64,000 bases of DNA, from positions 1,798,001 to 1,862,000 of the forward strand of contig NZ_CP072596.1 in NCBI RefSeq assembly GCF_017815535.1, written 5' to 3'. The position numbers were made by a program, and so were the translations under genes. The stretch comes from Tessaracoccus sp. MC1865. GTDB taxonomy: Bacteria; Actinomycetota; Actinomycetes; Propionibacteriales; Propionibacteriaceae. Positions 1,281 through 5,964 of this stretch are shown here, piece by piece (within the stretch, counting starts at the first letter, position 1; each line of letters opens with the position of its first letter). The notes under the pieces were generated by a model. That model was not told where the DNA came from and ran no database searches. It was given only the letters and a program-made list of their open reading frames with translations.

Positions 1281-3218
1281 TCAGTTCAGCGCCTCGAACT
1301 TGCGTGACCAGGCGGAGCGGATCGGGTTCGCGTCAGCCACGAGGGCATCGAAGCGGCGGTCAGCGATGTTGGCCACCTCCCCCACGGTCTTGTGCAGTTC
1401 GCGTTCCGGCGAGGCCTCCACGCGCACCCAACTCTGCTCCACGACGGAGTCGAGCGTGGTGGTTGCGTTGAGCGACACCACGAGCGGGAGGCCGAACTTG
1501 TCCTGGTACGCGTGCGACACGGCCATGAGACTCTGCCGGTCGTGGTCGTCCATCCTGTCGGCGGCCAGCGATCCGGTCTCGGTGAGCGCGGCGATGTCCG
1601 ACGGCGTGTGACCAGGGTCCTCGTCGAGGAGGAGGTCGGCGATGTCGCGGTACCTGAGGATCAGGCTCCGCTGTTGGTCGGGGGTGCCGCTCATCAGCGA
1701 GTTCTGGAAGGCTGCCCGCAGGTCGGCCGTCGAGTTGAACGGACGCGACTGGTACGCGGCACGGATGGGCCAGGTCTCTTCCGGATAGAGGCTGCGGAAG
1801 GTCTCGACGAAACGTTCCTCGTCCATGGCGTTGATCTGCTCCAGGTTGAGCGGGCTCCTGCCTGAGGTCGCGACGTCCGGGCCCCGGCGGCGGCCGATGT
1901 GGAAGAACAGCAGGTTGAGCACGATCGCGGTGATCGCGCCGATCGTGACGCCGGAACCGAAGAAGATGTGGAGCCACCCGGGCACAGCCTGGGCGACGGA
2001 GGGCTGCAGGGTGACCAGCATCGCCAACGCCAGCGAGGTCGAGACGATGACCTGGTTGCGGTTGTCGTGCAGGTCGGCCTTGCCCAGCGTCTGGATGCCG
2101 ACGAAGGCCACGTTGGCGAACATGGCCAGGGAGGCACCGCCCAGAACCGGTCCGGGGATGGCCGCGACGATGGCGCCGGCCTTCGGGAGGAGGCCCAGGA
2201 TGATCATGAACACGCCGGCCACGGCGACAACCCAGCGCGACTTCACGCGGGTGAGGCGCACGAGGCCGACGTTCTGCGCGAAGCAGGTGTAGGGGAACGA
2301 GTTGAGGACACCGCCCAGCGCGGTGGACAGGCCGTCGGCGCGCAACGCGGCGGCGATGTGCTTCGGGGTGATGCGCTTGCCGACGACCTCACCGGTGGCG
2401 AACACGTCACCGGTGGTCTCGACGGCCGTGATGGCCATCACGATCAGCATGGAGACGATCGCGGCGAAGGTGAACTTGGGCATCCCGAACCAGAACGGGG
2501 TGGTCACGCCCACCCAGGAGGCGTCGGCCACGTGGGTGAACGAGGTGTCGCCCAGGATGACGGCGACAACCGTACCCAGGACCAGACCCATGAGGACGGC
2601 GACGGTGGCCATGAAGCCCTTGAAGAAGCGCTGCATCAGCACGATCACGCCGAGCGTGGCCAGCGCGTAGGCCAGGTTGCGTGTCAATTCCGCCCCTGCG
2701 GCGTTCCCGCCGCCGGCACCGCGGACGATGTCGCTGGCCGCCACGCCGATCAGGGTGGTGCCCATCACGGTCAGGAGGGTGCCGGTGACCACCGGCGGGA
2801 AGAAGCGGATGAGCTTGGAGAAGTAGGGGGCGACGAAGAACGTGGCCAGACCGGCGACGATGATGGAGCCGTAGATCTCCGGCAGGCCCTCCCTGCCACC
2901 GCCGGCGGCCAGGCCGATGGCGATGATCGGCGACACGGCCGTGAACGTCACGCCTTGGATGAGCGGGAGCCGCACGCCCACCTTCCAGAAGCCGACGGAT
3001 TGGATGATCGTCGCGATGCCGCAGGTGAACAGATCGGCGTTGATCAGGTGGATGAGGTCCTGGGTGGACAGGTCCAGCGCGCCGGCGATCACGATGGGGA
3101 CGATCACCGCGCCGGCGTAGAACGCCAGGACGTGCTGCAGGCCGAGGACGGCCAGCTTGGGCCCCGGTGGAACCTGGTCAACGGGGTGGACGCGGCGCTC
3201 CAGCGTGGCGGCGGACAT
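1281..3218 (-). CDS. NCS2 nucleobase:cation symporter fused to a C-terminal UraD-like (OHCU decarboxylase) domain
   Basis: A 645-residue protein. Residues 1-445 are a uracil/xanthine/urate permease of the NCS2 family, with about 14 hydrophobic segments and the signature around VETTGDVFATGEVVG (266-280) and QNVGLVRLTRV (315-325). Residues about 457-640 resemble 2-oxo-4-hydroxy-4-carboxy-5-ureidoimidazoline decarboxylase, the last step from urate to S-allantoin: they keep the helical pattern and a YQDKFGLPLVV stretch (572-582). The family's catalytic His in AHPD is Tyr523 here (RYRD), while a Glu (547) aligns with the second catalytic position. The cytosolic domain may therefore bind rather than decarboxylate. 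The ATG start has a GGAG 6 bases upstream, and TAGCTT further up could be its -10. The fusion suggests urate or xanthine as substrate. Confidence 0.88.
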   Translation of the reverse strand: MSAATLERRVHPVDQVPPGPKLAVLGLQHVLAFYAGAVIVPIVIAGALDLSTQDLIHLINADLFTCGIATIIQSVGFWKVGVRLPLIQGVTFTAVSPIIAIGLAAGGGREGLPEIYGSIIVAGLATFFVAPYFSKLIRFFPPVVTGTLLTVMGTTLIGVAASDIVRGAGGGNAAGAELTRNLAYALATLGVIVLMQRFFKGFMATVAVLMGLVLGTVVAVILGDTSFTHVADASWVGVTTPFWFGMPKFTFAAIVSMLIVMAITAVETTGDVFATGEVVGKRITPKHIAAALRADGLSTALGGVLNSFPYTCFAQNVGLVRLTRVKSRWVVAVAGVFMIILGLLPKAGAIVAAIPGPVLGGASLAMFANVAFVGIQTLGKADLHDNRNQVIVSTSLALAMLVTLQPSVAQAVPGWLHIFFGSGVTIGAITAIVLNLLFFHIGRRRGPDVATSGRSPLNLEQINAMDEERFVETFRSLYPEETWPIRAAYQSRPFNSTADLRAAFQNSLMSGTPDQQRSLILRYRDIADLLLDEDPGHTPSDIAALTETGSLAADRMDDHDRQSLMAVSHAYQDKFGLPLVVSLNATTTLDSVVEQSWVRVEASPERELHKTVGEVANIADRRFDALVADANPIRSAWSRKFEALN

Positions 3219-3336
3219 GGGCTGCTCCTGTCACGAAAAATCGACTGGCTAAAGCTACCCCCAGCCCCTCCGATTCGCCATCCGGCAGAATCATCTGCTA
3301 ACGTTCTTCATCGCGTGGTCATCCACTGACCACCGG

Positions 3337-3409
3337 TCCCTGGTAGCTCAATTGGCAGAGCATCTGACTGTTAATCAGAGGGTTACTGGTTCGAGTCCAG
3401 TCCGGGGAG
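3337..3409 (+). tRNA. tRNA-Asn (anticodon GTT)
   Basis: A 73-base cloverleaf. The acceptor stem pairs 3337-3343 with 3402-3408 (one T-G pair), and G3409 is the discriminator. The anticodon stem TCTGA/TCAGA encloses the loop CTGTTAA with anticodon GTT at 3370-3372. The T stem ACTGG/CCAGT encloses TTCGAGT. CCA is not encoded. A strong rho-independent terminator follows 27 bases later, so this looks like a single-tRNA transcription unit. Confidence 0.97.
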
Positions 3410-3435
3410 CTAGAGCAAACACGCTCTGACAAGCT

Positions 3436-3477
3436 GAACGGCCCTTCCAAGCTCCATTGGAGGGGCCGTTCTTTTTT
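3436..3477 (+). terminator. Rho-independent terminator of tRNA-Asn
   Basis: The 15-base arms 3436-3450 and 3457-3471 pair fully apart from one G-T pair, enclose the 6-base loop GCTCCA, and are followed by six Ts on the + strand. This is the most canonical terminator in the window. Confidence 0.92.
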
Positions 3478-3496
3478 AGCCAACCTCGCGACTCCT

Positions 3497-4177
3497 CTAG
3501 GGGTTCTCGTGGTGCGGCATGCCCACCGGCTTGGATTCCGGGGAGTTCCGCTGCCGGAGGAACACCGCGAAGATCGCCATGGACCCCACTGCAAGGAACT
3601 CGGACTGCCAGTTCTGGAACGTCCTGCTCCAGAACTCCGGTTGGAGGAGGTAGTCACCCAGGCTGAGCGGATCGAGCAGGTCGCGCAGGCGTTCCTCGTT
3701 GTAGGCGACACGACCAGCCACCGCCTGAGCAGCCCAGGACAACACGAAGATGGCGAACATCACGATGGTCAGCGACATCGAGAACACGCTGGTACGCCAC
3801 CCGCCGACCCGGGCAAGCTGCGGCGAGTCAGGCCGGGCGAACTCCCCCACCATCTCCTCCGAGTCGTCGTGCGGCCCCATCTCCTGGGGCGGCTTGGACT
3901 CCGACGAACCCCGCTGGACCAACCAGACGGTGAGCAGGATGAAGAGCGTGAACTGGAGGTACTCGGACTGCCAGTTCTCCGCCACGTCGACGGCGAACGA
4001 AGAGGACGTCAGGTAGCGCCACATGTCGATCTCGGCCAGGCCCGCCGTGCGGGCCTCCAGGTTGTAGTGGGCCTGACCGGCGAAGGCCTGGCCGATCAGC
4101 GCGAGCAGCAGCAGGATGCCGAAGCCGATGGACAGGGAGTTGTCGCGCAGCGCGGACGGGACTCGTGGATCCTTCAC
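3497..4177 (-). CDS. DUF6766 family membrane protein, internally duplicated
   Basis: A 226-residue membrane protein of unknown function that fits the DUF6766 family. It has four hydrophobic segments (about 14-34, 74-88, 131-153, 196-208) arranged as a tandem duplication: each half has a first helix, a YNxE-type loop, then NWQSE (69-73 and 189-193), a second helix and an ESKP tail (93-96, 214-217). The GTG start overlaps the stop of the upstream 30-residue peptide (GTGA), so translation is probably coupled. It ends the lipoprotein/microprotein/DUF6766 operon and runs toward tRNA-Asn. No catalytic motif is visible; an envelope or stress role is only a guess. Confidence 0.85.
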   Translation of the reverse strand: MKDPRVPSALRDNSLSIGFGILLLLALIGQAFAGQAHYNLEARTAGLAEIDMWRYLTSSSFAVDVAENWQSEYLQFTLFILLTVWLVQRGSSESKPPQEMGPHDDSEEMVGEFARPDSPQLARVGGWRTSVFSMSLTIVMFAIFVLSWAAQAVAGRVAYNEERLRDLLDPLSLGDYLLQPEFWSRTFQNWQSEFLAVGSMAIFAVFLRQRNSPESKPVGMPHHENP

Positions 4178-4266
4178 CGCGCCACCGCCGCAATGATGAA
4201 GACGGCGAGCAGCCCCAGCAGGATGAACAGCAGGTACGTCCAGAACACAACCCTCGCGAGAATCAT
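4174..4266 (-). CDS. 30-residue single-pass membrane microprotein
   Basis: A short frame of 30 codons plus stop encodes almost only a hydrophobic helix (about residues 6-28, rich in Leu, Ile, Phe and Ala), with an Arg at position 5 and at the C-terminus. Its ATG overlaps the stop of the upstream lipoprotein (ATGA), and its stop overlaps the GTG start of the DUF6766 gene (GTGA). This double coupling and the clean transmembrane composition are the evidence that it is real. The function is unknown; it could be a small partner of the four-helix DUF6766 protein. Confidence 0.6.
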   Translation of the reverse strand: MILARVVFWTYLLFILLGLLAVFIIAAVAR

Positions 4267-4655
4267 GCCTTCACCTCACACTCGTACGGCCGGGCGGGAT
4301 CCGCCTCTTCACGGACGCATCCCGCTGCGGTCACCAGCCAGCCCTCAGGGAACCGCGCCAGGAACACGACGTCATCCGCGAGTCGCACCTGGGCGCTCTC
4401 ACCCGCGACCTCCCCGCCCTCCACGTCAGAGGCCGAGGGCAGCCCCAGTTCCTCAAGGACTGCGGCGCAATCGGTGCCCGAGTCCTTCTCCACGCTCTTG
4501 CGGGTCTCCGGCGCGAGCATCTCGCACGCCTCCGCCGGAGTGGCTCCCACGAAGGCGCGGGCGGCGTCTTCCACCTCGCCCTCGCGGGCGTCGGCCGAGC
4601 AGCCGGCCACTGCCAGACCGGCGATCACCACAGCGGCCATCCAGTTTCTTGCCAC
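4263..4655 (-). CDS. Small secreted lipoprotein
   Basis: A 130-residue protein with a lipoprotein signal peptide: a short basic start, a hydrophobic core, and the lipobox LAVAGC, whose Cys19 would be lipidated and anchored outside the membrane. The mature part is acidic and contains four further Cys, perhaps two disulfides. I recognise no enzymatic domain. The GTG start is supported by GAGGAGG 9 bases upstream. It is the first gene of the operon with the 30-residue membrane peptide and the DUF6766 protein, which points to a shared job at the cell surface. Confidence 0.8.
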   Translation of the reverse strand: MARNWMAAVVIAGLAVAGCSADAREGEVEDAARAFVGATPAEACEMLAPETRKSVEKDSGTDCAAVLEELGLPSASDVEGGEVAGESAQVRLADDVVFLARFPEGWLVTAAGCVREEADPARPYECEVKA

Positions 4656-4766
4656 GAGTTCAACCTCCTCGAGACAGCGGGGCCCATATCCGGGTGAACC
4701 CGTCCGAGAAAGCCGACAGTAGTCCCGGACAGGTGCTTCGAATCACACCCTTGTGGGCTACGACAG

Positions 4767-4772
4767 TAGGCT
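4767..4772 (+). promoter_or_regulatory. Predicted -10 box of a leaderless ybaK transcript
   Basis: TAGGCT ends 6 bases before the ATG at 4779. Transcription starting about 7 bases downstream of the box would begin at or next to the start codon, and no Shine-Dalgarno sequence is present. Confidence 0.6.
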
Positions 4773-4778
4773 TCGCCC

Positions 4779-5270
4779 ATGGCCAAGAAGCAGCACGGCG
4801 GCACGGGCACGCCCGCCACCAGCGCCCTGGACCAATCGAAAGTGCCCTACACCATCCACACCTACGACCACGATCCCGCCTCACCCTCCTACGGTCTCGA
4901 AGCAGCGGAGGCGCTGGGCAGGCCGGCCGAGGAAGTGTTCAAGACGCTGCTCGTCGATACCGGCGCGGGGCTCGCCGTCGGGGTGGTCCCGGTCCATCTG
5001 CAACTGGACCTGAAGGCGCTCGCGGGCGCCCTGGGGGTCAAGCGCCTCACCATGGCCGCTCCTCCCGCGGCCGAACGCTCCAGCGGGATGGTGGTCGGGG
5101 GCATCTCCCCCATCGGTCAGCGCAAGGCACTGCCCACGGTGCTCGACGCGTCGATGCAGGGCAGGGCCACAGTGCTGGTCAGCGGCGGACGACGCGGCCT
5201 GGACGTCGAACTCGCCCCTGCTGACCTGGCGCGCCTCACCGGGGCCACCTTCGCTGCCATCGCCAGGTGA
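4779..5270 (+). CDS. ybaK: Cys-tRNA(Pro) deacylase, YbaK/EbsC family
   Basis: Trans-editing enzyme that hydrolyses cysteine mischarged onto tRNA-Pro in the cytoplasm. Its 163 residues match the usual family length. Lys55 in the EEVFKTLLVD segment is the conserved functional lysine. GGISPIGQRK (107-116) and SGGRRGLDVELAP (135-147) are family blocks. The ATG is preceded by a TAGGCT box with a 6-base spacer rather than a ribosome site, suggesting a leaderless message. The lipoprotein operon is transcribed divergently from the 123-base gap upstream. Confidence 0.93.
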   Translation: MAKKQHGGTGTPATSALDQSKVPYTIHTYDHDPASPSYGLEAAEALGRPAEEVFKTLLVDTGAGLAVGVVPVHLQLDLKALAGALGVKRLTMAAPPAAERSSGMVVGGISPIGQRKALPTVLDASMQGRATVLVSGGRRGLDVELAPADLARLTGATFAAIAR

Positions 5271-5288
5271 GCCACCGGGCCCGGCCGC

Positions 5289-5294
5289 TAGCCT
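5289..5294 (+). promoter_or_regulatory. Predicted -10 box of a leaderless acetyltransferase transcript
   Basis: TAGCCT ends 7 bases before the ATG at 5302, with no ribosome-binding site between them. Confidence 0.55.
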
Positions 5295-5301
5295 GTCCAC
5301 C

Positions 5302-5964
5302 ATGGCCTGGTCAGACATCTTCCCCTTCATGGGCGTGTCCATCCGCTGCGGTGACCTCACGCTCAGCGCGATGACGCCCGACGACGTGCCGGCGCTGCTC
5401 GCCGTCGCGGGCCGCGGCATCGTGCCGGACGGTTCCGGCTACCCGTTCCTCACCGACTGGGCACTGCTCCCGAAGGACCAGCGGGAGCTGAGTTCCACGC
5501 AGTTCTACTTCTCGAGGTGGAGCACCGCCCACCCCGGACGGTTCGAACTCCTCATGGTGGCGCGTCAGGGAGACAGGGTGCTGGGCGCCCAGGACCTTCG
5601 GGCGGCCGACTTCGCGGTGCGCCGAACGGGCTTCACCGGGTCCTGGCTGGGCCGGGAGTTCCATGGCAGCGGCATCGGCACCCGCATGCGTCAGATGATC
5701 TGCGCCTTCGCCTTCGACGAACTGGGCGCCATCGAGATGCGCACCGAGGCCTATGCCGACAACCCGGCATCGAACAGGGTGAGCCAGAAGACCGGCTACC
5801 GGGAGTTCGACCGCGCCCGCGTCAACCGCCTGGGCGAGGCCGCGACCGAGGTGCGCCACAAGCTCACCCGGGAGCAGCTGACCAGGCCGGAGGAGCCGAT
5901 CAGCTACGACGGCGGCCAGGCCCTGCGCCGATTCCTCGGCATCTCCTGGGTCAGCCCGCGATGA
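5302..5964 (+). CDS. GNAT family N-acetyltransferase (RimJ/RimL type)
   Basis: A 220-residue acetyltransferase. The acetyl-CoA pyrophosphate loop is REFHGSGIGTRMR (118-130), and the following helix and ASNRVSQKTGYRE segment are typical of the RimJ/RimL branch that acetylates protein N-termini or small amines. The substrate cannot be told from sequence. Its 3' end overlaps the convergent SCO gene by 14 bases, so no terminator separates the two. Confidence 0.88.
   Translation: MAWSDIFPFMGVSIRCGDLTLSAMTPDDVPALLAVAGRGIVPDGSGYPFLTDWALLPKDQRELSSTQFYFSRWSTAHPGRFELLMVARQGDRVLGAQDLRAADFAVRRTGFTGSWLGREFHGSGIGTRMRQMICAFAFDELGAIEMRTEAYADNPASNRVSQKTGYREFDRARVNRLGEAATEVRHKLTREQLTRPEEPISYDGGQALRRFLGISWVSPR

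Follow-up and report, generated by a model that had tools for sequence, protein, structure and literature searches.

Does the very short open reading frame (ORF) that is wedged between a lipoprotein gene and a DUF6766 gene in Tessaracoccus sp. MC1865 encode a protein, and do the products of the three genes belong together? The locus lies in a stretch of 64,000 nucleotides (contig NZ_CP072596.1, positions 1,798,001 to 1,862,000), which was analysed as a whole and is hereafter called the window. The initial annotation, made from the sequence alone, had described three envelope proteins linked by ATGA and GTGA overlaps, and both the coordinates and the junctions were confirmed: the three genes run on the minus strand (Table 1), the ATG of the short ORF shares its bases with the lipoprotein stop, and the GTG start of DUF6766 shares its bases with the stop of the short ORF, whose product is MILARVVFWTYLLFILLGLLAVFIIAAVAR (30 residues). 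We find that this ORF is a gene conserved at the protein level and linked to one side of the DUF6766 family, and we propose that the three products probably form one small envelope complex.

Relatives were collected by scanning a DUF6766 alignment against genome contigs, and the best 80 of at least 531 confirmed relatives were kept. Since these are the loci nearest to the DUF6766 of the window, the sample favours the peptide-bearing side of the family, a bias that leaves the whole-genome sets described below unaffected. The kept loci span Propionicimonas, Streptomyces, Nonomuraea, Actinoplanes, Arthrobacter, Solirubrobacter and Conexibacter, and a similar hydrophobic frame lies directly upstream of DUF6766 in all 80. 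With 13 further loci from the whole-genome searches they make up a set of 93, in which the peptide is exactly 27 residues long in 74 loci and 28–32 residues in the others, and follows the pattern MR..F..YL..I..GLAY....GL..R, mostly over 27 codons. Because the frames had first been picked by hydrophobicity and length, a hold-out test was run without that rule. The peptides were divided at random into two halves; profiles made from one half and run against the six frames of the other loci recovered 93 of 93, each as the best match in its locus, with scores of 9.8–55.3 bits (median 35.8) against at most 4.7 bits for all other frames (719,673 base pairs, six frames), although near relatives may fall in both halves. 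Breakage of the short frame in relatives was looked for, and the frame was found intact in all 93 peptide-type loci. Applied to six further loci, the same reading rule found no short frame; five of these encode DUF6766 of the ENWESE type described below, and one a partial protein that also reads NWESE.

That gene finders would miss the ORF had also been predicted, and this was the case in the four annotated Streptomyces plasmid records examined: no coding sequence is listed over the peptide in any of the four, and the profile finds it in each, although in one of them (L155) the lipoprotein is unlisted too, the gene table being incomplete by its own description. Searches of Pfam and NCBIfam with 73 of the 93 peptides (alignment A3, from which 20 peptides, mostly near-copies, had been removed by hand) gave no model with a convincing score. 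Judged by their sequences, the peptides of 27–32 residues are a new family of small proteins that accompanies a domain of unknown function.

Several features of the peptide DNA point to selection on the product. Over all codons of the 74 peptides of 27 residues, nucleotide entropy is 1.21, 0.91 and 1.16 bits at codon positions 1, 2 and 3, and at eight codons chosen for their conserved residues it is 0.56, 0.45 and 1.16 bits. The third base is therefore as variable at conserved residues as elsewhere and the residue is kept, which argues that the frame is selected as protein. The mean BLOSUM62 score per residue is 1.94 in the reading frame versus 0.50–1.15 in the other five, of which four contain stops. 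Among the 56 members of A3 with 27 residues, the most conserved positions are R2 (51), F5 (49), I12 (42), G15 (55), L16 (52) and G23 (48), and conservation follows the periodicity of a helix (power at 100 degrees, p = 0.013).

How specific is the association of the peptide with its neighbours? Full-length DUF6766 occurs in 12 of 396 genomes of the phylum. The peptide profile gave 10 matches at E ≤ 1.5e-5 in these genomes, all 10 beside DUF6766, with the next match at 0.004; since the ten peptides are part of the model, this result speaks for its specificity. Two genomes of this set (G356 and G101, loci L021 and L025) encode a full-length DUF6766 without the peptide, of the ENWESE type. Among 335 genomes of the class, 38 of 39 peptide matches at E ≤ 1e-3 adjoin a full-length DUF6766, as do 39 of 42 at 0.01, where the two additional non-adjacent matches are partial ones. 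When counting is confined to genomes with handles outside the model input, 31 of 34 matches are adjacent to DUF6766, with the reservation that the same species may occur in both collections. The adjacency count used 48 full-length DUF6766 places and excluded partial and single-repeat matches (20 of the 68 class genomes with a DUF6766 match have no full-length copy or only pieces); nine of the 48 have no peptide match next to them, eight of these being of the ENWESE type and one belonging to genome G620, to which we return below. The lipoprotein profile, with up to 10 candidates scored per genome, gave 29 matches in 24 of the 396 phylum genomes, and all seven below E = 1e-20 adjoin DUF6766, all others being at 5e-11 or worse. 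Directly upstream in the 80 kept loci, a lipoprotein match is strong in 77, weak in one (E = 7e-4) and absent in two, so that the supposed linkage of the lipoprotein with DUF6766 was borne out by both counts.

The DUF6766 proteins without the peptide are of a kind of their own. Of 146 distinct full-length proteins, 125 read ENWQSE..QF in the first repeat, 19 read ENWESE..QM and two read neither, one of the two with the peptide and one without, a split of motifs that was defined after the alignment had been seen. The peptide is adjacent to 124 of the 125 proteins of the first type (the peptide of L004, which is under the profile threshold, being counted from direct reading of the locus) and to none of the 19 of the second. 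In the unrooted tree of the 146 rows, one branch with support 100/100 separates 126 peptide-associated rows, G620 included, from 20 rows without the peptide. The exception among the proteins of the first type, L220 of G620, is a case of splitting: the lipoprotein and peptide genes stand together (L240, C1:668700-675700), which gives the only non-adjacent peptide match below 1e-3, and the peptide-type DUF6766 is found at a distance of 2.58 megabases (Mb) on the same contig, which is 4.41 Mb long. All three genes have been kept after the split. The G620 arrangement can be regarded as a natural experiment on which pair belongs together.

The junctions bear on the same question. The peptide stop and the start of the DUF6766 frame overlap by 4 nucleotides in 69 of the 93 loci; at the lipoprotein/peptide junction the overlap is 4 nucleotides in 12 and 1 nucleotide in 18 of the 82 loci (out of 93) in which a lipoprotein with a lipobox was called, the starts having been picked by script and some of them being doubtful. 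In many of the 93 loci the peptide frame closes with CGA or CGG before its stop, so that CGATGA or CGGTGA forms the overlap at the start of DUF6766, and the peptide/DUF6766 junction seems to be under selection. A peptide that stays with the lipoprotein when DUF6766 is elsewhere, as in G620, could mean that it serves the lipoprotein, in export, lipidation or retention, and that DUF6766 is merely co-transcribed. We consider this unlikely, because eight rows combine the peptide and DUF6766 without an adjacent lipoprotein and because the overlap of 4 nucleotides is so much commoner on the DUF6766 side of the peptide. It could also be that the short frame acts only as a coupling leader that lets ribosomes reach the DUF6766 start, its product being inert; the frequent start-stop overlap would fit, as would the fact that no clear ribosome-binding site was seen, by eye, before the GTG of the window's DUF6766. 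Such a role is improbable for a frame whose residues are conserved with free third positions, whose length is constant at 27 residues in most loci, whose product has one conserved helical face and which survives in G620 without DUF6766 after it. That the peptide is a small hydrophobic toxin or modulator neutralised by its neighbours, as its size and its hydrophobicity, similar to those of small membrane toxins, might suggest, is very hard to credit when 38 of 39 class-genome matches sit beside DUF6766 with no sign of free movement and when Rfam gives only a tRNA at gathering scores in the region (window 3000-5500).

What kind of protein is the larger partner? The DUF6766 of the window is a full-length member of Pfam PF20554 (E = 1.2e-91, 306.4 bits versus a cut-off of 27, profile positions 3-218 of 221). 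Its two halves are homologous: they score 115 against each other, versus a mean of 26 and a maximum of 48 in 500 shuffles, their profiles match at E = 1.8e-30 (99 columns, 30% identity), and NWQSE stands at the equivalent place in both, so that the internal duplication noted in the initial annotation was upheld. Structure models were made of DUF6766 and of the lipoprotein from 17 and 66 alignment rows, respectively. The DUF6766 model (predicted local distance difference test, pLDDT, 78.8) has four long helices arranged as two repeats; Foldseek found no match for it at E ≤ 0.001, and a second fold comparison gave a best Z of 7.4, to helical proteins, a value that says little for helical bundles. 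Neither the DUF6766 nor the lipoprotein sequence matched a solved chain at E ≤ 1. Loop 1, with the first NWQSE, holds on average 0.8 lysine plus arginine and 5.4 aspartate plus glutamate residues, a strong outside bias; loop 3, with the second, holds 2.2 and 4.0, a mild outside bias; and the middle loop holds 7.1 and 7.2. From these loop charges we infer that the N terminus, the middle loop and the C terminus are inside and both NWQSE loops outside. Single-repeat relatives from the same phylum (L031-L036) carry one ENWQSE repeat, with a charged tail after it in L035 and L036 and an extra hydrophobic stretch before it in L031-L034, and are perhaps near the state before the duplication. That the extra N-terminal stretch might be a fused copy of the peptide is not supported, as the peptide profile scores no higher than 0.1 bits on nine proteins of this kind.

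The lipoprotein begins with GTG and has a signal peptide with an invariant Cys in the lipobox MARNWMAAVVIAGLAVAGC, which identifies it as a lipoprotein. Its alignment (A6; 66 rows, comprising the window and 65 of 68 candidates from the 80 loci, with one row, L075, in the wrong frame) has conserved columns C19, C44, C63, C113 and C126, of which C19 is invariant, and the four additional Cys could form two disulfides. The lipoprotein model has a pLDDT of 90.9. NTF2-like proteins head its fold comparison, with 3cnx at a moderate Z of 9.1 (root-mean-square deviation 3.2 over 92 residues), and the N-terminal part of PBP5fm follows at about Z 8; Foldseek alone gave no match at E ≤ 0.001. DUF4878, an NTF2-like family, is matched weakly by 4 of the 66 lipoproteins (best E 0.005). 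The lipoprotein is thus predicted from the model to be NTF2-like.

We therefore favour, with fair confidence, the explanation that the products of the three genes make up one small complex of the envelope, with a DUF6766 core, a single-helix subunit and an outer lipoprotein, perhaps related to stress. The core would be a tandem of two 2-helix repeats with both NWQSE motifs outside. The protein of 27–30 residues would be a single-helix accessory subunit packing along it, presumably through a face made of F5, Y8, I12, G15, L16, F19 and G23 (numbering of the 27-residue form), and the NTF2-like lipoprotein, anchored in the outer leaflet, would act outward, on the NWQSE side. Translational coupling through the start-stop overlaps, whose conservation is highest at the peptide/DUF6766 junction, may yield the products together. 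The suggestion of an undescribed membrane complex in the initial annotation is in this respect well supported as a unit of genes, and as a physical assembly it is a proposal.

As to the role, membrane adaptation or protection under stress appears the most likely, because the upstream sequences of some operons of the family suggest transcription from stress promoters of the SigB type. In Streptomyces coelicolor, promoters of SigB homologues have a GGGTA-like -10 and a loose GNNT -35 element (PMC8346170), and SigF promoters of Mycobacterium smegmatis have similar -10 elements (PMC4694148). GGGTA was one of seven patterns fixed before the 220 bases upstream of the lipoprotein start were inspected, and it occurs in 34 of 82 operons, where shuffling gives 15.3 ± 3.1 and the opposite strand 16. 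Comparisons made after the discovery took other genes from these loci as controls: the element was present in 34 of 81 operons versus 45 of 223 control genes (p = 0.0002), and within -18 to -12 relative to the start of the lipoprotein, a position chosen post hoc, the counts were 18 of 81 versus 2 of 223 (p = 1e-9). A looser two-box pattern, drawn up after inspection, gave 14 of 81 versus 7 of 223 (p = 8e-5). These p-values flatter the comparison, since related genomes are not independent.

A number of observations weigh against the proposed complex and its role. The lipoprotein is not adjacent in 8 of the 126 peptide-associated rows, several of them from Microbacteriaceae; three of the eight come from the phylum genomes, and of these three genomes two lack any lipoprotein match and one has a weak match elsewhere. 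Neither partner is adjacent in the 20 rows without the peptide, and the two counts together imply that the DUF6766 core can work without them. The trio as a unit thus stands with a qualification: the peptide and DUF6766 are the conserved core, and the lipoprotein is an addition that can be dispensed with. Immediate neighbours are mixed, the commonest Pfam family occurring in at most 4 of 73 upstream and 5 of 71 downstream genes of the 80 loci. Pairwise dN/dS (the ratio of nonsynonymous to synonymous change) of the peptide is unconvincing, with a median of 0.78 versus 0.86 and 1.33 in shifted frames, and several close pairs have more amino-acid than silent changes; we have not relied on it as evidence. 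The conservation of the last Arg may partly be an effect of the junction, since its codon is tied to CGATGA or CGGTGA. On the side of the promoters, classical GTTT..GGGTA boxes are not significantly enriched (5 of 81 versus 7 of 223, p = 0.31), the script-picked lipoprotein starts are in part doubtful, and the operon of the window has no GGGTA in its 220 upstream bases. Owing to these promoter limits we give the stress role modest weight.

A bolder version of the proposal would make the family of 27–30 residues an obligate subunit of an envelope complex that is widespread in actinobacteria, takes part in the general stress response of the SigB type and either senses the membrane or seals it, with one of its three parts commonly missed by annotation; we regard this as tentative, and as less likely than not to hold in full.

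Table 1. Features in and next to the three-gene locus (positions in the window).
Feature	Position	Strand	Remarks
NTF2-like lipoprotein (predicted)	4263..4655	-	130 aa; starts with GTG; lipobox LAVAGC; downstream of the lipid Cys, four conserved Cys (44, 63, 113, 126)
Single-helix membrane protein (predicted)	4174..4266	-	30 aa, ATG start, 4-nt overlap with each neighbour; family 27-32 aa
DUF6766 (PF20554)	3497..4177	-	226 aa, four long predicted helices forming two repeats; peptide-associated subfamily (ENWQSEYLQF)
Intrinsic terminator-like hairpin	3436..3471	+	3' of tRNA-Asn, before the 3' end of the DUF6766 gene; boundary feature only
tRNA-Asn	3337-3410		3' side of the trio, hairpin between

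Upstream of the trio, on the opposite strand, the window has a gene with an aminoacyl-tRNA editing domain, presumably of the YbaK type, and Rfam detected no RNA element other than the tRNA. A close homologue of the editing-domain gene (E ≤ 4e-50) is present in 6 of 10 genomes of the same genus that were searched, and no tRNA-Asn lies closer than about 1.5 kb to any of the six, so that they offer no clean empty site for the idea of a recent insertion at the tRNA. A conserved wider operon was considered and rejected, as no Pfam family occurs in more than 4 upstream or 5 downstream neighbours, these genes having been called by a script based on base composition. Families of stress type (CBS, ANTAR, hemerythrin, sigma-70) do occur among the neighbours and, there being no control set, were not used as evidence. 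In two Streptomyces plasmids the lipoprotein gene is immediately preceded by a gene with a hemerythrin domain (L154 3000-3476 and L156 2886-3362), which is perhaps a fourth member of the operon there. As for wider distribution, the DUF6766 family was found in none of 14 well-known control genomes, neither it nor the lipoprotein was found in 35 genomes of the same genus (a few of them incomplete), and DUF6766 was in none of 50,697 phage records, which leaves the idea of a phage cargo unsupported; three IMG/VR contigs carry the ENWESE type. In a plasmid collection (106 records) DUF6766 is present on plasmids of Agrobacterium, Sinorhizobium, Ensifer, Rhizobium, Streptomyces, Azospirillum, Deinococcus and others, and some of the regions examined have catalase, ferritin-like, Hsp20 or trehalose genes nearby.

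Among the closest known systems are the small subunits of cytochrome bd oxidase. CydX and its kin are likewise short proteins of a membrane complex, encoded in the same operon as their partner, partly unannotated and with few highly conserved residues, and the presence of CydX is coupled to one allele of CydA (PMC4325964), which resembles the tie of the peptide to one side of DUF6766. The differences are that the partner here is DUF6766, with no bd-oxidase family among the Pfam and NCBIfam matches at E ≤ 0.1, and that the peptide gene is the middle one of three, next to a lipoprotein. Small subunits of NSS amino-acid importers of the MetS type (NF033493, NF033494 and PF16951) are also membrane-borne and about 30 residues long (NF033493 has 30 positions), and no other models match as many members of the peptide family, although these matches are weak: NF033493 reaches E ≤ 0.1 in 4 of 73 members (best 0.0011) and PF16951 in 3 of 73 (best 0.023). 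NF033493 does not report the window peptide at E ≤ 10, and one 27-residue relative stays at 15.8 bits, under the cut-off of 25; moreover, MetS-type subunits are encoded beside an NSS transporter, whereas the neighbours here are a lipoprotein and DUF6766. There was also a single DUF1270 match to the family (E = 0.0084). The lipoprotein would share its predicted fold with the NTF2-like superfamily and differs in being lipid-anchored and in its four conserved additional Cys. Of DUF6766 itself the Pfam line says only that it is a domain of unknown function, and its association with the peptide and the lipoprotein and its two-sided tree are results of this work. The term DUF6766 was not found in the open-access literature searched, most subscription journals being outside that scope, and the operon is not described in the open-access titles and abstract openings retrieved on actinobacterial small membrane proteins or on such proteins together with lipoproteins.

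With this finding a domain of unknown function becomes a three-gene unit that can be tested, and a small-protein family is added that is absent from the protein-family libraries searched. The 146 DUF6766 proteins offer a natural contrast, one side of the tree having the peptide and the other never having it alongside. Deleting DUF6766, or expressing it alone for structural work, would overlook a likely subunit.
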